Shown here: positions 2,317-64,000 of the stretch, piece after piece | How positions within the stretch are numbered: the first letter of the stretch is position 1 | Layout of the letters: each line of letters opens with the position of its first letter | Origin: Bdellovibrionales bacterium | GTDB taxonomy: Bacteria; Bdellovibrionota; Bdellovibrionia; Bdellovibrionales; UBA1609 | Length of the DNA: 64,000 nucleotides | Assembly: GCA_028819545.1 (NCBI GenBank) | Contig: JAPPLG010000028.1 | Coordinates: forward strand, 116,987-180,986 | Direction: 5' to 3' | The notes under the pieces: model-generated | Told to the model about the DNA's origin: nothing | The model's input: the letters and a program-made list of their open reading frames with translations, nothing else | The model's database searches: none | Position numbers and translations under genes: made by a program

Positions 2317-3966
2317 TTAACGTGCATTTAAAGAGTCTTCACGCTCTTGATAACCGCGGGAAACCATATCAAAAATATTATCATGAGCTGTTCCGATAGG
2401 TTGATTGCCTAATTTTGCAGGTTTGTATCCATGTTTTTTTACTGAAGATTGATGGTTCTTTTTTTGTTGATCCAATAGGGATTGAAGCTGTCTGGAAAAA
2501 CCTGGAGCGCTTGCTCCTCTTTTGCCGCCTGAGTTTCCTTTGTTCGCAGAAGATCCTCCTCCATTACTGAGAGAAGGCTCAAAGTTTTCACCAGAAAGAG
2601 AGGATTCTCCTGTATCATCATCAGCTAAAAGGGGGATTCCTGAATTTTTCGATCCACTTGTTGAACCTGAACCGGCGCCCACTTGATTTGAGGCATTTTT
2701 ATGAGTTTGCTGTAATTCATCTTTTATACCTTCCATCTCATCAGGATTTACCCCTAATTGTCTGGCTAGATCTTCCAGGTTGCCGTGAGTGATTGGATTT
2801 CCATCAGGGTCATAAAATACAGGATTGCCGTTTGAAGGATCAATTTTGCAATGAGGATTTGCCTGCAGGCACGCATTTCTTATAGCTGTGTCACAGTCAT
2901 TTCCGGTCAGCTCTATACATAAGTCATTATCATCAGGATCCTGATCAATTCTGGTATCAGGGTTTGTGCACGTACCGTTACTGCAAATTTGTTCATTAGA
3001 GCAGTCAGAGTCATTTGAGCAGGTGTTAGTAGGGTTTGTGCACGTACCGTTACTGCAAATTTGTTCATTAGAGCAGTCAGAGTCATTTGAGCAGGTGTTG
3101 GTGTTAATGCATGTGCCGTTACTACAGACTTGTCCGTTAGAGCAGTCGGAGTTGTTTGAGCAGGTGTTGGTGTTAATGCATGTGCCGTTACTACAGACTT
3201 GTCCGTTAGAGCAGTCGGAGTTGTTTGAGCAGGTGTTGGTGTTAATGCATGTGCCGTTACTGCAGACTTGTCCGTTAGAACAATCGGAGTTGTTTGAACA
3301 GGTAGTTGTAGAAGGGCCGCAGGTGGAGCCGTCAGGGCAGATGCCGTTTGCAGGACATGCAGATCCGTCAGGACACTGACAAAGAGGTGAGTGTGGAGAT
3401 TCCTGGCAATGTATTAATCTACATTGTGGGTCTGTAAAAGGATTGCAAGGGCCTTCATCTCCTCCAGTTGTGTTTCCTGCAGTTGCAGTTCCTCCTAAAT
3501 CTTCTGCGGCATCTTTTGATTTTTTGGAGGATTTCATAGAGGCGGCTCCATTTGCTACAGCAGATATTCCATAAATACATTTAAGCACTCGACCTGGAGT
3601 GTGAGGGGGAGGACAACTCTTAGGTATCAGAATTCCTCCTGTAGTGATATCTATCATTCCTGTAACTTTTTGTGCTGTTTCTGCATCAAAAGCCAGAGTG
3701 GCTAAATTTCTGGCAATAGCTGAAGTTATCATAAAGTTTGTCATGCCATCACCTGTTGAGCCTTGTTCTGTATCTTTTATTTCATTTTTTATATCTTGTA
3801 CTTCATGTGATTTTACTCCTAACCCACTGGCCAACTCATCAATTGCTTTCATTGTATCTTCTGAAGATCCAGAGTCTGGTACAGCATTATCAGGCAATTC
3901 AAAGTTCTCTGAGGATTGAGCAAATAAGCTATAAAAGAAAAAGAAAAAAAGAAAAAGTTTTTTCAT
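2317..3966 (-). CDS. exported Cys-rich tandem-repeat protein
   Basis: A 549-residue protein with a strong Sec signal (MKKLF then a run of Phe, cleavage near AQS). Residues ~220-335 hold five near-identical 23-24-residue units of the form TCSN(N/D)SDCSN-x-Q-(V/I)-CSNGTC, four Cys each, resembling disulfide-rich modules of surface proteins. Two related segments flank this array: LASGLGVKSHEVQDIKNEI near residue 45 and LARQLGVNPDEMEGIKDEL near 405, suggesting an internal duplication. The C-terminal third is Ser/Gly-rich and low-complexity. Its last codons abut the IS3 remnant, so the C-terminus may have been altered by insertion. No enzymatic motif is visible; a surface or secreted role is inferred. 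Confidence 0.8.
   Translation of the reverse strand: MKKLFLFFFFFYSLFAQSSENFELPDNAVPDSGSSEDTMKAIDELASGLGVKSHEVQDIKNEIKDTEQGSTGDGMTNFMITSAIARNLATLAFDAETAQKVTGMIDITTGGILIPKSCPPPHTPGRVLKCIYGISAVANGAASMKSSKKSKDAAEDLGGTATAGNTTGGDEGPCNPFTDPQCRLIHCQESPHSPLCQCPDGSACPANGICPDGSTCGPSTTTCSNNSDCSNGQVCSNGTCINTNTCSNNSDCSNGQVCSNGTCINTNTCSNNSDCSNGQVCSNGTCINTNTCSNDSDCSNEQICSNGTCTNPTNTCSNDSDCSNEQICSNGTCTNPDTRIDQDPDDNDLCIELTGNDCDTAIRNACLQANPHCKIDPSNGNPVFYDPDGNPITHGNLEDLARQLGVNPDEMEGIKDELQQTHKNASNQVGAGSGSTSGSKNSGIPLLADDDTGESSLSGENFEPSLSNGGGSSANKGNSGGKRGASAPGFSRQLQSLLDQQKKNHQSSVKKHGYKPAKLGNQPIGTAHDNIFDMVSRGYQEREDSLNAR
2962..3303 (-). repeat. five tandem ~69-bp coding repeats
   Basis: Five consecutive units of about 69-72 bp inside the Cys-rich protein gene. 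The three N-terminal units are nearly identical at DNA level and the two C-terminal ones form a second subtype, so the array has grown by at least two recent duplications. Copy number is likely to vary between strains. Confidence 0.85.
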
Positions 3967-4110: not shown

Positions 4111-5910
4111 ATGAATAAGTTTAATAAAGAACGTCATTCCTGCGAAGGCAGGAATCCAGTGTGCGAAAATGACAGTGTATGCGGCAGGTGGATCCCCGCC
4201 TTCGCGGGGATGACGGGTGTTGCGGGGATGACGAAACAACACACGGGGATGAAGTATCTCATAAAAATTATTTTATTTACTTTAGCTGGAGCTTTTCACT
4301 TTTCTGCTTTTGGCTGGGTGGCTGATGAAGATAACTGTAAAGAGTATAAATATGGTTTAGAAAAAGAATCAGTTTTGAGATGTAGTGTGGGTGAAGGGGT
4401 ATGTGGTAGTGAGGGCGACCCTTGCGGGCCACAAAATAGCAGTGGGGATCCTAGTGGTAGATGTCGAACGGTTGAAATTTATGATGATCAGGAATTAGAG
4501 CGTAGAGATAGGGAATGCCAGGATTGGAAAAGTGATAAAGAAAAAGCAGAAGAAGAGGAGCGAGAAAGAAAAGAAAAAGAAGAAGAGGAACAGTTGGAGT
4601 TTGCAAAAGAGCAGGCTGAAAAAGCAGAAGAGGAACGACAAAGAGCTTTAGAAGAGCAACAGAAAATGATGGAGGAGGCTCGAAATGAGTGTAAATCCTC
4701 TTATGATGCTGTTGTTCGCGAAAGACGTGGAATTGAATCTGAAGTGGAAAGTATACAAAAACAGATGGATAAAATGGAAGATGCTATTACTTCACATTAT
4801 GCCTCTATTTCCGAGGGAGAGGATAGAGTTCGGGATGAAATTTTAAAATTGAAAATGGAAGAACGTCAGGCAATGAATAGCTTTAAAAGCAAGAAAATGG
4901 AAGCTGAGAAAATGGAGCAGGAAGGAGATCGAGCTTTACAGGAGGCTATTGAAGGTATTGAAGAGGATCTTTTTAACAGTGACATTACGCTAGAGGATAT
5001 CGCTAGAGCTAAGGAACAAGTTTGCTCTGACCGTTCAACGGAATATTTAAAAATTTCAGTCGAATGTTATAATGAAAAATTAGTGCAAGTTACAGCAGAA
5101 AGAGAAGAGCTTTTTAAAAGAATTCATTCAGGAAAATATACAGCCGCTAACGTCAGTAATTTGTTTCAAATGGATGCTCAAAATATTGATCTAACTTTTA
5201 AAAGCCGTTTAGATGCGCTTCATGCTCATTGTTTTTCAGAAAAAACAGGTGAGAGCCTTCCTGATCCCGGTCAGTCTTTGGCCGCTCAGATTCCCTGTAA
5301 TTTGCAGGTATTTGAGCAAAGAGCCAGGGATTGCAAAGAAAACAATACTCAGCGAGCATGCCCGTCAACTCCAATTGTACAGGCTATTGAACAAAAAGTT
5401 TTGGTACAATTAAGGCAAATAGACAGAGATGTACAAAAAATAGAAAGAGCAAGGGAACAAGCTATAGAGCATATCCAAAAATTAAAAGAAAAGCATAGAG
5501 AAGACAAGGAATGGATGGCCAAAGGTTTAGCGGATCTTGAAGAAAATCTAAGGCTGGCTAAACAAGACTTTAAAGAAAGACATGAAAGAGCAGAGAATGC
5601 ACTGTTAAGAGTTCGTGAAACAGCAGAAAACAGTATTCTGCAACTGGAAAGAGATAAAATTCGTTTGTTGTCTTCAGATCCTGCAAGGCACTTTGAAGAA
5701 CAGTTGGTTGTAGCAAGAGTTTCCTGCTGTCATTCAGTCAGTCCACAGCAAACATCTCAGCAGTGTGCTTTACTTAATCGTTATGAACAGGATGTTTCCC
5801 GTTTTCAATTTGCTTTTGCCCGTCCTTTGCCTGCGATTCGTTCGGCAAGCGGGCCAAGCTCCACTCGGGCAAGCAGTCGAAGTGGTGCAAGCAGTAACGG
5901 CACTCGATAA
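4111..5910 (+). CDS. exported coiled-coil protein with repeat-invaded N-terminus
   Basis: ATG 4111 has a good AGGAGT ribosome site eight bases upstream. The first ~46 codons are mostly palindromic-repeat sequence (two GGAATCCAG/GGATCCCCGC units in frame). A normal signal peptide then begins at internal Met (ATG 4249, MKYLIKIILFTLAGAFHFSAFG). The mature part has a Cys-containing head, a long Glu/Lys/Arg coiled coil (about residues 140-230), further helical segments with scattered Cys, and a Ser/Gly/Arg tail ending R-S-G-A-S-S-N-G-T-R. Either translation starts at 4249 or the export signal is now internal. Function unknown; the tail resembles that of the protein at 33591-34421. Confidence 0.75.
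   Translation: MNKFNKERHSCEGRNPVCENDSVCGRWIPAFAGMTGVAGMTKQHTGMKYLIKIILFTLAGAFHFSAFGWVADEDNCKEYKYGLEKESVLRCSVGEGVCGSEGDPCGPQNSSGDPSGRCRTVEIYDDQELERRDRECQDWKSDKEKAEEEERERKEKEEEEQLEFAKEQAEKAEEERQRALEEQQKMMEEARNECKSSYDAVVRERRGIESEVESIQKQMDKMEDAITSHYASISEGEDRVRDEILKLKMEERQAMNSFKSKKMEAEKMEQEGDRALQEAIEGIEEDLFNSDITLEDIARAKEQVCSDRSTEYLKISVECYNEKLVQVTAEREELFKRIHSGKYTAANVSNLFQMDAQNIDLTFKSRLDALHAHCFSEKTGESLPDPGQSLAAQIPCNLQVFEQRARDCKENNTQRACPSTPIVQAIEQKVLVQLRQIDRDVQKIERAREQAIEHIQKLKEKHREDKEWMAKGLADLEENLRLAKQDFKERHERAENALLRVRETAENSILQLERDKIRLLSSDPARHFEEQLVVARVSCCHSVSPQQTSQQCALLNRYEQDVSRFQFAFARPLPAIRSASGPSSTRASSRSGASSNGTR
4132..4247. repeat. palindromic repeat pair (CGTCATTCC...GGAATCCAG)
   Basis: Two inverted units: 4132-4159 (CGTCATTCCTGCGAAGGCAG then GAATCCAG) and 4189-4215 in opposite orientation (GGATCCCCGCCTTCGCGGGG then ATGACG), followed by two truncated GGGGATGACG units. 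They belong to the dispersed repeat family also seen at 9371-9570, 20316-20446, 40591-40620, 42325-42353, 42539-42693 and 43308-43335. Here the pair is read through in frame. Confidence 0.9.
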
Positions 5911-9337: not shown

Positions 9338-10519
9338 ATGCGGAAAATAAAGTTATCCCTGCAAAAGCAATTGGATTCCTGCCTTCGCAGGAATGACGTT
9401 CGTCCGTCATCCTCGCAACATCTGTCATCCTCGCAACATCTGTCATCCTCGCAACATCCGTCATCCCCGCAACATCCGTCATCCCCGCAACATCCGTCAT
9501 CCCCGCGAAGGCGGGGATCCAGTTATTTATGTCAAAAGACCCCTGCCTTCGCAGGGGTGACGAAAAGAGCAGGGGTGACAAAAAAAGCAGGGGACGAAGC
9601 AGTGCAGGTGCCAACCGAAACTGCTGAGCGAAGGCTTGCAAATAATCCCGGAGTTTCTAGATTCCTGTCTTTGCAAACGACGATCAAAATCTTTTTTATT
9701 GCTTTCATTGTCTTTATATCAGGAGGATGTCATTTACTGCCTAAAAAACTACAAACAGAAGACGCAGATGTAAAAGTGGGGGTTATTGTCGGCCCCGGGG
9801 GTGCTAGAACGCTAAGTGCTTTGGGGGTGTTGAATGCTTTTGAAGAAAATAATATTCCTGTTCATCACATTGTAGGAATGGGATGGGGGGCTTTTCTGGC
9901 TGGTGTCTATGCTAAAAATCAAAGTATTGATGAAGTACAGTGGAGTTTTTATAAACTGTTAAAGAGAGGATTTTTTGAAGCCTCTTTATTAAAGCATCCT
10001 TTAAAGCCAAAGAGTCTGGATTTAATGAATCAAAGTCTGGAAGAAAACTTGAATGCAAAAACTCAAATTCAATTTTCATGTCCTGTGATGAATAAACGAG
10101 GAAAAAAAATTTGGCAGACAGAAAAATTTCTGGAAAATTCTGTTCGAAGCTGTCTAGCTGTTCCACCTTTCTTTAAGCTTGATCAAAGTACAGGGTCTCT
10201 TTTTTCTGTACGTTCTGCAATTTCTTACTTAAAAAAGAAAGATATAGATATTATTATTTGGATCCATGCTTTGGATACAACCCCTTTCTTTCCTCGTGAA
10301 TTTTCATCAGCGGAAACTGTATTTTTATGGAACGAATTGGCAGATTCTTTTCGTTTGATTCCTGAAGAATCTTCTGTATATAAAATAGCTCCGTCTTTAG
10401 GCGGTTTTTATCTGAGTGATTTTTCAAAAATGAGAGAGATTATTGCAAAAGGTAAAAAAGAAGGTGTGTTTTTTGCAGAAAAACTGCAAAATAAATTTTT
10501 GAGAAGGAGCCGACAATGA
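9338..10519 (+). CDS. patatin-like lipoprotein lacking the catalytic serine
   Basis: Start ATG 9338 follows AGGTGAG at 9328-9334. Residues ~11-108 are translated repeat sequence (palindromic units plus six SSxQHx repeats). A lipoprotein signal then appears at 113-131 (TTIKIFFIAFIVFISGGC); TTG 9671 (codon 112) could be the real start and would restore a normal N-terminus. The body is a patatin fold: oxyanion loop GPGGAR (152-157) and a nucleophile elbow that reads G-M-G-W-G (180-184) where active enzymes have G-x-S-x-G. The DG[GA] Asp motif is also not visible. A lipid-acyl-hydrolase fold without activity is the best reading. It sits inside the xseA operon; pepP overlaps its stop by four bases. 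Confidence 0.8.
   Translation: MRKIKLSLQKQLDSCLRRNDVRPSSSQHLSSSQHLSSSQHPSSPQHPSSPQHPSSPRRRGSSYLCQKTPAFAGVTKRAGVTKKAGDEAVQVPTETAERRLANNPGVSRFLSLQTTIKIFFIAFIVFISGGCHLLPKKLQTEDADVKVGVIVGPGGARTLSALGVLNAFEENNIPVHHIVGMGWGAFLAGVYAKNQSIDEVQWSFYKLLKRGFFEASLLKHPLKPKSLDLMNQSLEENLNAKTQIQFSCPVMNKRGKKIWQTEKFLENSVRSCLAVPPFFKLDQSTGSLFSVRSAISYLKKKDIDIIIWIHALDTTPFFPREFSSAETVFLWNELADSFRLIPEESSVYKIAPSLGGFYLSDFSKMREIIAKGKKEGVFFAEKLQNKFLRRSRQ
9371..9570. repeat. palindromic repeats with embedded 18-bp minisatellite
   Basis: Palindromic units at 9371-9398, about 9496-9522 and about 9538-9563 bracket six units of an 18-bp tandem repeat (GTCATCC-Y-CGCAACATCY, starts 9406, 9424, 9442, 9460, 9478, 9496). Each 18-bp unit looks like half a palindromic unit, so the array probably grew by slippage from the repeat itself. 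All units are in frame with the surrounding gene. Confidence 0.9.
9592..9637. repeat. core fragment of the MITE-like element
   Basis: GACGAAGCAGTGCAGGTGCC followed by AACCGAAACTGCTGAGCGAAG matches, in reverse, the core of the elements at 110-250 and 42365-42503. No terminal inverted repeats are present here. It is translated in frame as part of the N-terminus of the patatin-like gene. Confidence 0.75.
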
Positions 10520-20315: not shown

Positions 20316-20446
20316 CCGTCATCTCTGTAAAAAAACGTCATCCCAGTGAAAGAACGTCATTCCTGTATGTAAAAGTCATTCCGGACTTGATCCGGAATCC
20401 AGTCGTACCCTGCAAGCCTCACCACCTTACCCCCGCGAAGGGGGGC
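20316..20446. repeat. palindromic repeat cluster
   Basis: Contains degenerate CGTCATCCC and CGTCATTCC half-units (20336-20370), one complete GTCATTCCGGACTTGATCCG-GAATCCAG unit at 20375-20402, and a CCCCCGCGAAGGGGGGCAT unit at about 20429-20448 that abuts the Sel1 fragment. Non-coding. Confidence 0.85.
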
Positions 20447-32628: not shown

Positions 32629-33489
32629 GTGAGTGAAGTTAAAAATGAAACAGGCTATTTTTATGGTGAACATAAAAGGAAGCTCTTTTATCAATCATGG
32701 AAAATCAAGGATCCTCAGGGTATTGCTTTTATCACTCACGGTCTTTCTGAAAATACAGATCGATATGACCGTTTAGCCCTTCAGCTGAATAAAGATAAAT
32801 GGAATGTTTATGCCTGGGATTTAAGGGGGCATGGGCGCTCAAGCGGCATTAGAGGGTACATTAGAAAGTTCAGGCTGTATGAAAGAGATTTGGTTCGTTT
32901 TTTGGATTTTGTATTAACTCGTGAGCAAAAACTACCTTTTATTTTATTTGGACATTCTCTTGGGGCTTTAATTATTGCCAGAGGGTTGTTGCATGAGGAG
33001 GATATTATTTCTTCAGCAAATGGAATTTGTCTTGCGGCTCCGGCTTTTGGATTGAGCATTAATTTATCTCTTTTTAAATTAACAATGAGTTATTTGACCA
33101 ATACTGTTTTTCCCTGGTGGGCTTATTACAATAAAATTTTATCTGTTCATTTAAGCCGCGACCCTTATTTTTTAAATTTAATTGAACATGATCGATTTCG
33201 TCATAATAGAGCTTCTCCGGAAGTTTATTTGACTGTTTTTAAAAATCCAAAAATTTTATGTGTTCCTCAAAAGATAAACACCCGTCTCTTGATACAGCTG
33301 GCTGGAAATGATGTGATTGTGGATAATCGGGTAGCCAAACATTATTTTGAGTGTGTAAAAAGTTCACGCCCTAAGAAATTAATTTCCTATTCAGCAAGTC
33401 TGCATCAAATGTATGAAGATTTTGGCAATGAAAGAATCACTGAAGATTTCAAATTATTTATGCGCCCTATACTTCTGGGTGAATCTTAA
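32629..33489 (+). CDS. alpha/beta hydrolase, lysophospholipase/monoacylglycerol-lipase-like
   Basis: A 286-residue serine hydrolase of the Hydrolase_4 type. HGLSENTDRYDRLA (about 36-50) and AWDLRGHGRSSG (about 66-77) are typical; the nucleophile elbow is GHSLGA (about 105-110), the acid is Asp in GNDVIVDNRVAK and the base is His in SASLHQMYEDF. Starts at GTG 32629, 15 bases after ftsZ. Its last 19 codons and stop lie in a 61-bp segment that is repeated perfectly at 34456-34516. Confidence 0.92.
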   Translation: MSEVKNETGYFYGEHKRKLFYQSWKIKDPQGIAFITHGLSENTDRYDRLALQLNKDKWNVYAWDLRGHGRSSGIRGYIRKFRLYERDLVRFLDFVLTREQKLPFILFGHSLGALIIARGLLHEEDIISSANGICLAAPAFGLSINLSLFKLTMSYLTNTVFPWWAYYNKILSVHLSRDPYFLNLIEHDRFRHNRASPEVYLTVFKNPKILCVPQKINTRLLIQLAGNDVIVDNRVAKHYFECVKSSRPKKLISYSASLHQMYEDFGNERITEDFKLFMRPILLGES

Positions 33490-33493
33490 TTGA
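33433..33493. repeat. 61-bp direct repeat, left copy
   Basis: This contains the final codons and stop of the hydrolase plus four bases. An identical 61-bp copy lies at 34456-34516. The two bound a 962-bp segment with one gene. This is the pattern expected from insertion of a cassette into the 3' end of a gene with reconstitution of that end, or from a recombination-mediated duplication. Confidence 0.95.
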
Positions 33494-33590
33494 TAGGGTT
33501 CATGGTAATAGATTGTATTTTTTTAATTAAAAAGGTTTATGTGGCTCGCGATAAATTCCGATTGTTATTAAAGTAGTCTGGGAGGGAAAC

Positions 33591-34421
33591 ATGAATAAAT
33601 CATTGATTTTAATTATAAGTGCTTTGATTTTTATCCCTGTTGTTGGTTATACACATGGTACATCAAATTCTGAACACCACCACCACCTTACATGTGATAA
33701 AGCTACAGAAAACTCTGGTTTAGAATTATACGAAGCTTTGGATAGAGCTCGTGAATCTTTTCCAGAGTATACGTCTTATCTTCAAGCTAAACGTGCTGTG
33801 ACTGACTCTTTTGCGGCATTTCACGATCTTTCTGATGCTTTACCAGAATATACTGCTAATCGAAAAACCTATGATGTTTATTACAACGCTCGCTCTGCTT
33901 ATGAACGAGCTCAGAGAGTTTTACCAGAATATACAGCTTATATAGAAGCTCGCAATGCTTATGATACAGCCAGAAATGCTAAAAAAGGTGATCATGAAGC
34001 TTATAGACCAGCACAGATAGTAGCTTATCTTGAAGCTCGTACTGCTCTTAAAGAAGCTGGAAAATCATTACCGGAATATACCGTCTATTCGGAAGCTAAA
34101 AATAATTATGATAAAGCCCGGGCTGCTTATACAGAAACTCGTGAAGCTTTGCCTGAGTACACAGCTTATATAGAAGCCTATGAAGCTGAAGAAAAAGCGG
34201 ATAAGGCTTTAGAAGAAGTTTCCAAGCCATTACCTGAGTGGACAGCACTTATGTCTTTTTTTAAAGAAGCAGGTGACGATTGTAAGAGAAGTATTCAGAT
34301 AGAATATGGGTATAGAATACGTTCAAAAAGCAAGCGATTAAGTCAACCAAGTCAGTCAGAATCATCTGTCAATCGAAACTCTCAGGAAAGACGTTCTGGA
34401 AGCAGTAAAGGCGTTCGATAG
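33591..34421 (+). CDS. exported helical-repeat protein (LPEYTAY repeats)
   Basis: A 276-residue protein with signal peptide MNKSLILIISALIFIPVVGYTHG, a His-rich start (HHHHLTC) and six irregular repeats centred on (L/F)PE(Y/W)T(A/S)(Y/N)-x-EA-x-x-AY-x-x-A between about residues 50 and 230, each roughly 22-35 residues and predicted helical. One Cys lies before and one after the array. The C-terminal tail RRSGSSKGVR resembles the tail of the protein at 4111-5910. It is the only gene between the 61-bp direct repeats. GGGAGG ribosome site is strong. Function unknown. Confidence 0.8.
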   Translation: MNKSLILIISALIFIPVVGYTHGTSNSEHHHHLTCDKATENSGLELYEALDRARESFPEYTSYLQAKRAVTDSFAAFHDLSDALPEYTANRKTYDVYYNARSAYERAQRVLPEYTAYIEARNAYDTARNAKKGDHEAYRPAQIVAYLEARTALKEAGKSLPEYTVYSEAKNNYDKARAAYTETREALPEYTAYIEAYEAEEKADKALEEVSKPLPEWTALMSFFKEAGDDCKRSIQIEYGYRIRSKSKRLSQPSQSESSVNRNSQERRSGSSKGVR

Positions 34422-34455
34422 TTTTTTACTTTTTAGATGGCATAAAAAAGTATTT

Positions 34456-34516
34456 AGAATCACTGAAGATTTCAAATTATTTATGCGCCCTATACTTCTG
34501 GGTGAATCTTAATTGA
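34456..34516. repeat. 61-bp direct repeat, right copy
   Basis: Perfect copy of 33433-33493, non-coding here because the rest of the hydrolase frame is absent. Centre-to-centre distance is 1023 bp. Confidence 0.95.
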
Positions 34517-34607
34517 CATCTATGTTCAGATCATAATAAGTTACGTCCTTTCCAATTAAAGTGAACTGCTTTATTGGGAATTTTCAAAGAAAGTGAAAGA
34601 TATATAT

Positions 34608-35444
34608 ATGTATCGAGTGCTTTTTATTTTGTTTATTGTTCCATTCTCTTTTGCTCTTCAAAAAGATTGTCCGGATGTTTTTTCTTTAGATGAATACATG
34701 AGTTATGAAGAAGCTAAGTCTTATGTGCAGACAGTTGTTCACCCACACTGCAAGAAAGATTTTTATGAATGGCTGTTCAGTGATGAAAGACCGAATGATT
34801 TTCCAAAGCATCCGAGTAAAGCATATAGAGATGAGTGGGAGGGTATTGATAAGTTTTTGAATATTCAAAAAGACGATCATTTACGTGAAACATCGGAAGA
34901 ACAAAAACTGAGACTTGCCATAGAAAGGCCGCATGGGCAAAGTCCGCTTAATAATGTTATGGCATTTCATTCACCCAGTGCAAAAGGAAATGAACAAAAA
35001 AGAGCAACTGGAACATCAAAGCCAAAACCTCATTCAAAGGCATCAAAGAAAAAACCAGAAAAGAACCCTGTAGTTAGAAAGACAAATTATATGCCTTTTA
35101 GAGAAGCCAGGGAGCAAGTAAGACAACAGGGATTTACTAGTAGAAATCAATATAAAAGGTGGGTGAGAGAAGAGAGAGTTGGGCTGGGTAATTTACCGAT
35201 AAATCCTGATGTGGTGTACGCAGATGAATGGGAGGGCTGGGAAAATTATTTGGGGATTAAAGAGGATATGACTTTTGAGGAGGCGCGTGAACACATTAAG
35301 CCATTTAACCTAAGCACTAGTACAGAATTTAGTAAGTGGTCTTCTTCAGGGAAGAGGCCGTCGAATTTTCCATCAACTCCAAAACTAAAATATTATAAAG
35401 AGGGCTGGATAAACTGGAAACATTTTTTAGGTGCTGAAGATTAA
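34608..35444 (+). CDS. exported protein with integrase-type W/P repeats
   Basis: About 278 residues from ATG 34608 (GTG 34593 is an alternative). Signal peptide MYRVLFILFIVPFSFAL. Three copies of a ~55-residue unit: (M/F)-x-x-EA-x-x-x-V near its start, K/RW in the middle, then P-x-x-(F/L)P-x-x-P-x-x-x-Y-x-x-EW-x-G/N-x-x-x-(F/Y)LG; units lie at about 31-90, 162-220 and 224-278. This pattern matches the small repeat known from some phage integrases and algal proteins, here in an exported protein without a catalytic domain. A Lys-rich linker separates unit 1 from units 2-3. Confidence 0.75.
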   Translation: MYRVLFILFIVPFSFALQKDCPDVFSLDEYMSYEEAKSYVQTVVHPHCKKDFYEWLFSDERPNDFPKHPSKAYRDEWEGIDKFLNIQKDDHLRETSEEQKLRLAIERPHGQSPLNNVMAFHSPSAKGNEQKRATGTSKPKPHSKASKKKPEKNPVVRKTNYMPFREAREQVRQQGFTSRNQYKRWVREERVGLGNLPINPDVVYADEWEGWENYLGIKEDMTFEEAREHIKPFNLSTSTEFSKWSSSGKRPSNFPSTPKLKYYKEGWINWKHFLGAED

Positions 35445-39665: not shown

Positions 39666-42341
39666 ATGAAAAACTCCTCCCATAACTTAAACTGGAAACT
39701 GATGAACTCTATTGCAATGGGGGCTCATTACTTATTGAATCAAATGATTTTAAAAGCCAACTCGCGCCCTGATAAACAAAAAGGGGATCCTAAAGTTGGA
39801 GGACACAGCTCTGCCAGCACCAGTGCTCTTCATATTTTAGGAGCTTTGCATTTAGTGGTTCGAAGAGGTTTTGATTTTATTGTGAATAAACCTCATGCTT
39901 CGCCGACAGATCATTCTTATCATTATTTATTAAATTTACTTTTAAATAAAGAAAACAATCAGCCTCTTTCTGAAAAAGAGGCGGAACAGTCCATGGGCTG
40001 TTTAAGGGATTTTGCAACAAAAGATCAGCCTTATGTTTTTCAATCCTATCATTCTCATTATGATCCGGATCACCATAATTTTCTTCCTTCCGGTACTGTG
40101 GGTATTCCTCCAGTGGTGTTGGGTTATTTGGCTTTGGCTTATAATTATTTAAGGGATCAGGGATATAAAACTCCTTCTGCTCATTTCTGGGCGCTGATTG
40201 GAGATTCAGAATTTCGGGAGGGTTCTTTGTTTGAAGCTATTCCGGATTTTGCTGAAAGAGAGCTTGGGTCTCTCACATGGATTATTGATTACAACAGGCA
40301 GAGTCTGGATGGACATCGTGTGCCCTTTTCTCCTATGGGAACAGACGATAAAAGAATTGAACAGACTTTTTTAGCCAATGGCTGGGATGTTCTTCAAGTC
40401 AGACATGGTGAGAAACGTCTTCAGTTGTTTAAAAAACAAGAAGGCTTTCTTTTTAAAGAATTTTTAGAAAAACTTTCTGATTGGGATTTGCAGATGCTCT
40501 TGCAATTTGAAAGTTCTCAAATTCGTGAATTTATTTTAACTAAGTCTTCATCTTCTGCCCTTGGCTCGGCGGTTTCGACTGGCGTCTCACCGTCTCGCTC
40601 CCGCGAAGGAGGGAATCCGGCACTTAAAAAGTTTATAAAAAATCTCAGCGATTCAGAATTAAAAGAAGCAGTTCATGATTTAGGCGGCCACGATATAAAA
40701 ATTATGGCTGAGGCTTTAGAAGAATCCAAACGTAATGATAAAAAACCCTGTGCTGTTATTGCCCACACCATTAAGGGGTGGGGTTTAAAGATGGCTGTTC
40801 AAGGCGGAAACCATTCCACACTGCCTTCAGCTCAAGAGCTTTCAGAATTAAAGAAAAAGATAAATTTTTCTAAAAGTGAAAAGGATTTTCCTAAATTTGA
40901 CAAAAAATCTTCAGAAGGAAAGTTTTTGCAAGCAAGACATGAAGATCTTTTTGAAGAAATGAAAAATCAAAAAGAAATTTGTAATCAAAATAAAAAGAAA
41001 TTTGAAGATATTGCAACAAATCTTCCTCAGGAATTGGGTATTCCTTTGAAGATGATGAGTTACCCTCACACACAGTGGATGTTTGGGCAGTGGATGTCCA
41101 AGCTCAGTCGTATTGCGGAAAGCTCTACTTTGAAAGAGCAGGAAAAACCTTTTCAAAAAGTTTCAAAAATGCTTGTGTCTTTATCTCCTGATGTGGCGAC
41201 ATCTACAAATTTATCTTTCAGTATGGATCAAAAAGTTTATCAAACGTCTCATCTTACTTCAGAAGATTCCAAGTGGATTGTAGAAGATAAGAAAACCCCT
41301 GATGTGCAACCGGATACAAAACCGGATCATCGTTTCTTAAGATTTGAAATTGCAGAAGCTTCTGCAATTTCCTGTCTGTCTGCTTTTGGAAAAATCAAAG
41401 ATATACTTGGAGTTCCACTTGTTCCTTTTATGACTGTTTATGATTTTTTCATCAAGAGAGCTTTGGATCAATACTTCTATGCTCTTTATTGGAAATCCAA
41501 TTTTATTTTAGCAGGAACTCCGTCTGGTGTGACTCTTTCTCCGGAGGGGGCTCAGCATGGCTGGAAGTCTGATTTTCAAATTCCGGGACAAGTCACTTTC
41601 GAGCCTTATTTTTGTATTGAGGTGGATTGGATTTTAACAGAGGCTCTTTATCGCCATATGACGGGTGAGAATCAGGATCGAACAGGTGTGTTGTTAAGAG
41701 CTGTGACTCGTGGTGTGGATCAAAAACAATTTGTACATTATTTGAGCCAGCAGGCCAGATTTAAAAAATCTTTAGGAGGTCAAAAACTTCATCCCAAAGG
41801 TTTTTCTGTTTCATCTGCAGTGGATGAATCTCAAGTTCAATCTATCTCAGAAACAGAAATGATGTCTGTGATTCGGGAAGACGTTTTAAAAGGGGCTTAT
41901 CGTTTGATTGATTTTAAAAATTATGCAGATTACCGGGTGGATGAAAATGTAGTCAATATTTTTGCCATGGGAGCATTGGGAAGGGAAGCCAGCGAGGCTT
42001 CTATGGAGTTATTAAAAAAGGGTATTTATGCCAATGTGATTATTGTCACCAGTCCTGATTTATTGTTGGGGGGATTAGCTCATGGCAATGAATATGTTCA
42101 TTTGAAAGAGAATTTAAGTTCGGCTCCTATTGTGAGTGTGCATGACGGGGAGCCTGGTTTACTGGATAATATTGGATCAATACTAGGTCTTCCTCAGGAG
42201 TCTTTGGCGGTGAGAAAACATTCTGTCTGCGGAACACCTTCAGATATTTATGAGTATCATGGTTTGGATCCTTCAAGCATTATTCAGGCTTCTCTAAAAG
42301 TATTGGACAGAGCCTCTTCTTTGTCGTCATTCCGGACTTGA
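39666..42341 (+). CDS. aceE: pyruvate dehydrogenase E1, homodimeric type, with repeat insertions
   Basis: An 891-residue AceE-type E1, the thiamine-diphosphate enzyme that decarboxylates pyruvate and acetylates the E2 lipoyl group. Evidence: KVGGHSSASTSALHILGALH near 45-65, the ThDP motif GDSEF-n-DYNRQSLDG (about 179-217), HTIKGWGLK near 367, and transketolase-like C-terminal domain with GALGREASEASMELL. A ~20-residue segment near 300-318 is translated palindromic repeat (SRSREGGNP at its core). The last four residues and stop codon come from another repeat unit at 42325-42353. Both events keep the frame open, so the enzyme is probably active. No E2 or E3 gene is in the window. Confidence 0.95.
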   Translation: MKNSSHNLNWKLMNSIAMGAHYLLNQMILKANSRPDKQKGDPKVGGHSSASTSALHILGALHLVVRRGFDFIVNKPHASPTDHSYHYLLNLLLNKENNQPLSEKEAEQSMGCLRDFATKDQPYVFQSYHSHYDPDHHNFLPSGTVGIPPVVLGYLALAYNYLRDQGYKTPSAHFWALIGDSEFREGSLFEAIPDFAERELGSLTWIIDYNRQSLDGHRVPFSPMGTDDKRIEQTFLANGWDVLQVRHGEKRLQLFKKQEGFLFKEFLEKLSDWDLQMLLQFESSQIREFILTKSSSSALGSAVSTGVSPSRSREGGNPALKKFIKNLSDSELKEAVHDLGGHDIKIMAEALEESKRNDKKPCAVIAHTIKGWGLKMAVQGGNHSTLPSAQELSELKKKINFSKSEKDFPKFDKKSSEGKFLQARHEDLFEEMKNQKEICNQNKKKFEDIATNLPQELGIPLKMMSYPHTQWMFGQWMSKLSRIAESSTLKEQEKPFQKVSKMLVSLSPDVATSTNLSFSMDQKVYQTSHLTSEDSKWIVEDKKTPDVQPDTKPDHRFLRFEIAEASAISCLSAFGKIKDILGVPLVPFMTVYDFFIKRALDQYFYALYWKSNFILAGTPSGVTLSPEGAQHGWKSDFQIPGQVTFEPYFCIEVDWILTEALYRHMTGENQDRTGVLLRAVTRGVDQKQFVHYLSQQARFKKSLGGQKLHPKGFSVSSAVDESQVQSISETEMMSVIREDVLKGAYRLIDFKNYADYRVDENVVNIFAMGALGREASEASMELLKKGIYANVIIVTSPDLLLGGLAHGNEYVHLKENLSSAPIVSVHDGEPGLLDNIGSILGLPQESLAVRKHSVCGTPSDIYEYHGLDPSSIIQASLKVLDRASSLSSFRT
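40591..40620. repeat. palindromic repeat unit inside aceE
   Basis: CGTCTCGCTCCCGCGAAGGA then GGGAATCCGG is a diverged copy of the dispersed unit, read in frame. The insertion (with flanking 40555-40590 of atypical composition) lies between the ThDP motif and the HTIKGWG segment. Confidence 0.85.
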
Positions 42342-42353
42342 TCCGGAATCCAG
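42325..42353. repeat. palindromic repeat unit at the aceE stop codon
   Basis: CGTCATTCCGGACTTGATCC-GGAATCCAG, a perfect-arm palindrome. The TGA in its loop (42339-42341) is the aceE stop codon, so the repeat has replaced the original C-terminus. Confidence 0.9.
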
Positions 42354-42364
42354 TCATTATCAGC

Positions 42365-42503
42365 AAAATATTTTGTATAAGCAACTCAAAGCTCAAACAA
42401 CGAAGCAGTACAGGTGCCAACCGAAACTGCTGAGCGAATGCTATCACAGAATCTGCTCCACTTCAAATCCGAACTCGTTTGAGCCGCTTATACAAACTAT
42501 TTT
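42365..42503. repeat. MITE-like element, copy B (139 bp, inverted)
   Basis: The ends AAAATATTTTGTATAAGC (42365-42382) and GCTTATACAAACTATTTT (42486-42503) are near-perfect inverted repeats. The inside matches copy A at 110-250 in reverse orientation along its whole length, with scattered differences. Non-coding. Confidence 0.75.
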
Positions 42504-42538
42504 ACTGTCGTTTCTTGCTCCATACTCCTACGAAAGAA

Positions 42539-42693
42539 CGTCATTCCGGACTTGATTCAGAATCCGGTCGTACCTGTTATTCTCAATCCTTCTGCTCAGT
42601 GATTTCGGTTGGCACCTACACTACTTCGTTTTCATCTCCACGTTCTTCGTCATCCCCGCATTCTTCGTCATCCCCGCGAAGGCGGGGATCCAG
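42539..42693. repeat. mixed repeat array (palindromes plus MITE core)
   Basis: A CGTCATTCCGGACTTGATTC unit at 42539-42567, a MITE core copy at 42590-42632 (TCGGTTGGCACCTACACTAC in the middle), then two CTTCGTCATCCCCGC units ending in a complete palindrome at about 42664-42693. Non-coding, between aceE and hsp20. Confidence 0.85.
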
Positions 42694-43207: not shown

Positions 43208-43307
43208 ACTTTACCTCCTATTTTTAGATTTTCATCCATAAGGTGTGTTGCTTTTTTAATTTGTCAAGCGCATGCCTTTAAAAAAATGTTATCCCGGCAA
43301 ACATGAC

Positions 43308-43335
43308 TGGATTCCGGATCAAGTCCGGAATGACA
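43308..43335. repeat. palindromic repeat unit upstream of ggt
   Basis: CTGGATTCCGGATCAAGTCC-GGAATGAC, one complete unit in the hsp20-ggt intergenic region. It precedes the chosen ggt start by 60 bases; an upstream in-frame extension through it is not taken as coding. Confidence 0.9.
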
Positions 43336-63367: not shown

Positions 63368-64000
63368 ATGGGTTACTATCGTTTTTTCATTATTATTTGT
63401 AAGTTAATTTGTTTACTCTACCCTTCTGTAGTTTTAGCTGATTCCAAGCCTGAAAGACAATTGAACAAATTGACATTAGAGGAAACAAGATCTGCGATTC
63501 AAGAGTATAATAAGACGGCTCCAGAGGGCGAAGAAATTGTATCTGAACGCTCTTATAGTAGTTTTCGTCATAAGATTGGAACTCCAGTATTTAGAACTCT
63601 ACGTCGTTATCATGATAAGATTGGAACTCCAGTATTTAGAACTCTACGTCGTTATCATGAAAAGCAATTTGGCACTAGTGCAGGATTAGCTGAATACCTC
63701 TTTCCTACAAGGAGCAGAACAGCAAGAAGACAATCAAACAAATTGACATTAGAGGAAACAAGATCTGCGATTCAAGAGTATAATAAGACGGCTCCAGAGG
63801 GCGAAGAGATTACATCTAAACATTCTTACAGTAGTTTTCGTGATAGAATACCGAGAGCGCCATCAATTCCTACTCTATATAGTTATCATGAAGAGCAATT
63901 TGGCACTAGTGCAGGATTAGCTGAATACCTCTTTCCTGCAAGGAGCAGACCAGCAAGAAGACAATCAAACAAATTGACATTAGAGGAAACAAGATCTGCG
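63368..64000 (+). CDS. exported tandem-repeat protein (incomplete at window edge)
   Basis: ATG 63368 opens a frame that is still open at the end of the window (211 codons seen). Signal peptide near residues 3-25 (RFFIIICKLICLLYPSVVLA). Then repeats begin at residue ~33: KLTLEETRSAIQEYNKTAPEGEE, SYSSFR, a variable segment, YHE-x-QFGTSAGLAEYLFP-x-RSR. Two complete repeats (91 and 77 residues) and the start of a third are visible. A 15-residue block (KIGTPVFRTLRRYHD) is duplicated in tandem within repeat 1. Family not recognised; no function can be given. Confidence 0.75.
   Translation, partial: MGYYRFFIIICKLICLLYPSVVLADSKPERQLNKLTLEETRSAIQEYNKTAPEGEEIVSERSYSSFRHKIGTPVFRTLRRYHDKIGTPVFRTLRRYHEKQFGTSAGLAEYLFPTRSRTARRQSNKLTLEETRSAIQEYNKTAPEGEEITSKHSYSSFRDRIPRAPSIPTLYSYHEEQFGTSAGLAEYLFPARSRPARRQSNKLTLEETRSA
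63464..64000 (+). repeat. nested tandem repeats, 231-273 bp
   Basis: Repeat starts at 63464, 63737 and 63968. Flanking sequence is almost identical at DNA level between repeats while the middle varies. A 45-bp direct duplication (63572-63616 and 63617-63661) inside the first unit explains most of its extra length. All events keep the frame. Confidence 0.9.

Follow-up and report, generated by a model that had tools for sequence, protein, structure and literature searches.

How small genes that lack an integrase enter bacterial chromosomes is poorly resolved, and one- or two-gene islands mostly carry no readable scar. Genomic islands that sit at gene 3' ends between att repeats rebuild the 3' end of the host gene and leave the old end at the far side of the island. 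The minimal mobile elements of Neisseria are small alternative cassettes that lie between conserved genes and are spread by transformation; their exchange is by double crossover and leaves no duplicated gene end, unlike the arrangement described here.

The closest experimental parallel comes from Escherichia coli, in which DNA with a lacZ 3' end integrated without a site-specific enzyme, so that the insert came to lie between the gene and an incomplete second copy of the gene's 3' end (PMC3240628). A duplication PCR product was obtained from 56 of 60 screened Lac-negative integrants, and the 14 integrants that were sequenced carried a duplication of 109-950 bp of the lacZ 3' end (PMC3240628). 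In the authors' account the linear DNA was trimmed and re-circularised and then integrated by a single crossover that depends on RecA; the resulting duplications were about 10 times commoner than classical homology-facilitated illegitimate recombination (PMC3240628). In T6SS/Rhs immunity arrays an incoming gene is accompanied by a homologous anchor, and serial events push old 3' ends downstream until arrays form (PMC5361080). In the transformation merodiploids of Streptococcus pneumoniae, the uptake of partly repeated DNA leads to tandem duplications by unequal crossing-over (PMC3784515).

The locus considered here lies in the window, a stretch of 64,000 nucleotides from a Bdellovibrionales genome (contig JAPPLG010000028.1), in which ftsA and ftsZ are followed by a hydrolase gene, a 962-bp segment with one gene, and then an unrelated gene (Table 1). 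The earlier note, made from the letters of the window, had described perfect 61-bp direct repeats around this segment, with the last codons and stop of the hydrolase present twice, a single gene between the copies and an unrelated gene downstream, and each of these points is borne out. The two copies are exact and are spaced 1023 bp from start to start; 57 bp of gene end lie within each, which in the first copy are the final 18 codons of the hydrolase and its stop, and 4 bp follow. Their edges are abrupt, with 9 of 40 and 14 of 40 positions matching in the 40-bp flanks on either side, approximately the level of chance, while about 4e-27 chance pairs of 61-mers are expected in 64 kb. The segment between the copies has no second copy in the genome, and its composition is ordinary for that genome. 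The gene downstream shows no relationship to the cassette gene, either by BLASTP (E 0.19) or by DNA comparison, which gave no match. It is predicted to be exported and carries an integrase repeat unit (INT_rpt), a repeat named after integrases. The host gene had been labelled a lipase; it is better described as an alpha/beta hydrolase of the S33 (Hydrolase_4) type (Pfam E 6e-47).

Table 1. Features of the window locus (window positions) and duplicated gene ends at the seven host genes in the genome sample (contig and sampled stretch).
Feature	Position	Strand	Repeat or other evidence	Cassette
Alpha/beta hydrolase, host gene, intact, 286 aa	32629..33489	+	Pfam PF12146 Hydrolase_4, E 5.9e-47; ORF list	
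Repeat copy R: last 57 bp of the hydrolase including stop, plus 4 bp	33433..33493	+	exact 61-bp direct repeat	
Inserted cassette, 962 bp, single copy in genome	33494..34455	+	GC 0.368 vs sample mean 0.362	
Cassette gene, predicted exported protein, 276 aa	33591..34421	+	ORF list	
Repeat copy R': orphaned, truncated second hydrolase 3' end	34456..34516	+	exact repeat, abrupt edges	
Next gene, predicted exported, 283 aa, INT_rpt repeat	34593..35444	+	PF14882, E 1e-6	
(A) Hydrolase	window		61 bp, 100%	one gene, 962 bp
(B) Class-V aminotransferase	C7 (L064)		90 bp, 100%	240-aa gene, family unassigned
(C) CADD-family folate-metabolism gene	C34 (L113)		148 bp, 94.6%	small aspartyl protease + 82-aa gene
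(C2) 225-aa gene, convergent neighbour of (C)			59 bp, 96.6%	exported -SSKGVR protein + small exported partner
(D) pheT, first further copy	C34		131 bp, 96.9%	6 kb (1358-aa + 554-aa proteins) and ~1.5 kb (DUF4143 protein), for both copies of (D)
(D) pheT, second further copy	C34		64 bp, 100%	
(E) asnS	C1 (L099)		106 bp, 92.5%	RelE/HI1419-type toxin-antitoxin pair
(F) Pilin	C29 (L111)		699 bp, 99.7%	AbiEi-AbiEii pair

Beyond the window, the genome was sampled in stretches totalling 0.905 Mb of 1.45 Mb (62%), and direct repeats were sought there in which an intact gene ends in one copy and the second copy is truncated. The search for further genes with duplicated ends that the earlier note had proposed returned the same geometry at six genes besides the hydrolase. 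The scar is thus present at seven host genes in six loci, a lower bound given that the sample covers 62% of the genome. The anatomy is shared by all seven: an intact gene, a cassette, and downstream of it a truncated copy of the 3' end (59-699 bp, 90-100% identity). The cassettes mostly measure 0.7-1.9 kb, two stand in series at two of the loci, and the cargo differs at every locus, with clear toxin-antitoxin pairs in two of the cassettes. Mirror-image cases, with a duplicated 5' end and the truncated copy upstream, were absent from the sample besides tandem paralogues and dispersed repeats; the truncated copy lies upstream in one pair on C29 (641-699/2887-2945) and in one weak 41-bp pair on C35.

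Several candidates were set aside, namely a duplicate of an internal gene segment that lies upstream of the gene concerned (L078:2638-2704) and tandem paralogues at L034, L085, L100 and L112. In two of these paralogue sets (L112:18391-19952 and L085:452-5022), similarity is higher over the 3' ends and the flanks downstream than over the remainder of the genes, as if those parts had been homogenised. Repeats of other kinds also occur: long exact tandem repeats of up to 107 bp lie inside coding regions of the window (2959-3260 and 63454-64000), and palindromic repeats of the GTCATTCCGGACTTGATCCGGAATCCAGTC type are dispersed in many genome copies, including at 4129-4216, 9372-9650, 20375-20404, 42326-42690 and 43303-43334 of the window. 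One repeat of this type sits within the pheT repeat copies.

The likeness to the described systems has limits on each side. The duplicates are of similar length to those of E. coli lacZ (59-699 bp here, 109-950 bp there), but that system was a laboratory conjugation construct (PMC3240628), whereas the events here are natural and repeated and involve housekeeping genes, divergent donors and cargo encoded by the genome. In the T6SS/Rhs arrays the anchored gene is a variable toxin (PMC5361080), while here the anchor is an unrelated housekeeping gene that stays intact, and the cargo bears no relation to it. The pneumococcal duplications are large (107 kb) and consist of resident DNA (PMC3784515) rather than single foreign cassettes. 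Unlike islands flanked by att repeats, the present cassettes are mostly of only 0.7-1.9 kb, lack an integrase and a common core, and have repeats of up to 699 bp.

The direction of the event can be read at pheT. Of 24 relatives, 21 have ihfA immediately after pheT. Here, too, a pheT 3' end is separated from ihfA by 49 bp and merR comes next, as it does in most relatives, but the complete pheT gene is found 7.8 kb upstream, on the far side of two cassettes. Because most relatives have both this adjacency and this order with merR, the stranded pheT end beside ihfA is the native one. The comparison shows an insertion at pheT-ihfA, in which the intact pheT has received an equivalent end. The pre-insertion order in relatives thus upholds the earlier note's preference for insertion over tandem duplication. 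For the hydrolase, ftsZ is absent from the ~1.5-kb flanks of the hydrolase matches in relatives. The genus has a single member among the genomes compared, and accordingly neither a donor nor an empty-site strain was found.

The same scan, applied to 1.29 Mb from eight relatives, gave one convincing gene-end scar against seven in this genome (binomial p ~0.01, a value that is indicative only, the thresholds having been set after the first cases were seen). This one case, in genome G013 (L219:10836-13464), is the end of an aminotransferase gene behind an inserted lysC gene, with a decayed scar, and it indicates that the pattern extends beyond this species.

The differences between the copies bear on where the duplicated ends came from. 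If an end had been copied from the resident gene at insertion, one of the two copies would have been non-coding and random change would be expected in it. In the four diverged pairs, however, the coding differences are 15 synonymous to 3 non-synonymous; these comprise 6:1 for asnS, 2:1 for pheT and 2:0 for the pilin as counted by script, and, read off the alignment by eye, 5:1 plus one frameshift for the CADD pair. In simulations of neutral change the synonymous fraction came to 0.27-0.30, against which 15:3 has a binomial p of ~1e-5. Mostly synonymous differences imply that each copy changed under selection, as the end of a functional gene in a genome of its own, before the two were joined, and hence that one copy was imported. 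The G013 pair, with 1 synonymous to 7 non-synonymous differences, displays a pattern of decay and no sign of import. The argument for import rests on the other loci of this genome, since the window copies are identical; by extrapolation, their identity would mean that the window donor was close or that the event was recent.

Together, these observations are best explained by the integration of DNA from relatives, consisting of a gene end and a cassette, through single-crossover homologous recombination at the gene end, a reading that we regard as probable. The 61-bp repeat is then best explained as the scar of a non-disruptive insertion, in which the gene end most likely acted as the stretch of homology. 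In the donor strain, the cassette gene would have stood next after the hydrolase gene, so that the incoming fragment would have comprised the hydrolase 3' end and the cassette gene. This fragment would have been trimmed and re-circularised as in the E. coli model, with the gene end serving as homology for a RecA-dependent single crossover. The product would be the gene, R, the cassette and R', an order in which the host gene retains a full 3' end while its former end lies beyond the cassette. The process would have been repeated at least seven times in the sampled genome, and in succession twice at two loci. What the data show is the arrangement, the fact that it recurs, the pheT-ihfA insertion and coding-type divergence in four pairs of copies; the mechanism itself, the donor, the route of entry, a circular or one-sided intermediate and the dependence on RecA are all points that we infer.

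The repeats themselves are compatible with this reading in most respects. Their lengths range from 59 to 699 bp and their positions around the stop codon from -12 to +87 bp, and no common core was found among them, the longest motif common to two repeats being 10 bp; such variable length and position without a core fit homology rather than a site-specific enzyme. Any gene end would be usable, as expected of homologous recombination as a general reaction, and the bias toward 3' ends would be due to selection, since insertion there leaves the gene whole. One end of the insert is homologous to the host gene at these loci. At four sites, the right-hand boundaries lie within ~4 bp of the stop codon, which is tighter than plain homology requires and counts against the proposal, as do the C29 and C35 pairs with an upstream truncated copy and the decayed G013 pair. 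Natural uptake of linear DNA is plausible, since the genome encodes proteins of the ComEC and DprA families and has pilin-like genes. As a suggestion, retention by addiction would fit the two toxin-antitoxin cassettes.

The earlier note had favoured gene-end-targeted integration or a cassette swapped by recombination. Integration at gene ends is supported by the recurrence of the scar and by the pheT-ihfA comparison, but the element of targeting by a site-specific enzyme is not, as neither a core nor a hairpin nor an integrase accompanies the cassettes. Such targeting would have small non-autonomous elements use the gene 3' end as an att site and rebuild it, with a tyrosine integrase acting in trans. 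The geometry is identical to that of attL and attR at gene 3' ends, seven Phage_integrase matches in the genome exceed the cut-off, and one integrase (L111:15104-16279) lies near the pilin case. Yet no integrase was found in the cassettes among their ORFs or by Pfam, the repeats of 59-699 bp have no motif in common, and seven unrelated targets would need seven specificities. Furthermore, the repeats fold no better than shuffles: in the search for an attC-like hairpin, four repeats gave z of -1.7 to +1.4 against shuffled sequences, no better or only weakly better. tRNA genes are the usual place for integrase islands, and of the four integrase loci checked, three have an integrase adjoining a tRNA gene instead. 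Site-specific integration is therefore unlikely. We give no more credence to a bolder reading, in which integrase-free units of cargo and neighbouring gene end would form a dedicated gene-adding route of this lineage, using the gene end as recombination site in an integron-like manner, with each end serving as its own attachment site, building up serially behind housekeeping genes with toxin-antitoxin and exported -GVR cargo, and perhaps being re-excised via the repeats.

Classical homology-facilitated illegitimate recombination follows the same logic of anchoring in the gene end, without a circle and with a random join upstream of the old end. It has been proposed for the T6SS immunity arrays of V. 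cholerae, where the old effector 3' end is shifted back (PMC5361080). In the E. coli study, however, a deletion is expected from this process, and duplications belong to the single-crossover class (PMC3240628). This route is accordingly rather improbable here.

An artefact of assembly, arising from a strain mixture or a collapsed k-mer loop, could be suspected in a draft of 35 contigs in which a 61-bp repeat is of short-read scale, and a true seam does exist elsewhere, where a 55-bp repeat abuts an N-gap (L109:10572-10919). However, in nearly all pairs the overlaps between contig ends do not exceed 55 bases, and they plateau at exactly 55, which sets the assembler k at 55. At 61 bp, the repeat does not qualify as a k-mer seam, and a k-mer artefact at the window repeat is ruled out. 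Nor would k-mer joining fit repeats of 59-699 bp, several of them 3-8% diverged, with no N-gap at the junctions of any gene-end case, and we consider the artefact reading very improbable. It is possible that the window locus is a collapsed array of several cassette copies. Contigs of G000 mostly end within a few common sequences, probably recent insertion-sequence copies, and poly-G runs occur at two G000 contig ends.

Tandem duplication of the hydrolase end and the downstream gene, followed by loss of most of one unit, would also yield direct repeats and a truncated copy downstream, but it is the least likely of these readings and highly improbable, for the downstream gene is unrelated, the window cassette is single-copy, no two loci share a cassette and the pheT-ihfA order shows insertion. 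The earlier note had also held it to be less likely. A dispersed repeat family is ruled out by the genome-wide check for further 61-mers, which found the two window copies only, and an insertion sequence or transposon by the variable repeats of 59-699 bp and by the termini of the window cassette, whose terminal 60 bp hold no inverted match longer than 7 bp.

To our knowledge, gene-end duplication by single crossover has so far been known mainly as a laboratory by-product, and a limited search of the open-access literature met no earlier description of the pattern at housekeeping genes. The class of outcome is thus known from experiments; the novelty lies in its occurring in nature, repeatedly and at housekeeping genes, with insertions in series and donor ends that have diverged. 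This points to a recurring recombination route for gene gain without a dedicated integration enzyme. At seven genes the scar is readable, and with it the direction and order of events and the divergence of the donor. As the signature of intact gene, cassette and truncated 3' end can be searched automatically in any genome, the contribution of the route is measurable. The direct repeats that flank the cassettes also make them losable, and the perfect 61-bp repeat of the window predicts clean loss of its cassette by recombination.

The protein encoded by the window cassette has a signal peptide as read by eye and five to six repeats of 27 aa with an LPEYTxY motif, and it ends in -SSKGVR. No family was assigned above the cut-off in Pfam, PADLOC or NCBIfam, and no relatives were found in 40 related genomes, GTDB genome contigs, phages, plasmids, viral contigs or PDB sequences. 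The single-sequence structure model is all-helical (mean pLDDT 78.5); a PDB fold search with it returned weak matches to helical-bundle proteins (best E 9e-3, TM 0.25), which were treated as uninformative. The -SSKGVR ending recurs in other exported proteins of the genome, one of them within the gene-end cassette C2. A -GVR C-terminus, which may represent a C-terminal sorting signal or mark a module of effector and partner, is present in 5 of 841 sampled ORFs (window 33591-34421, L026:126-1430, L054:1572-2639, L108:18751-19752 and L113:36-920), all five with a signal-peptide-like start and two of them ankyrin-like. After three of these five ORFs comes a small exported protein of ~85-97 aa that belongs to one family.
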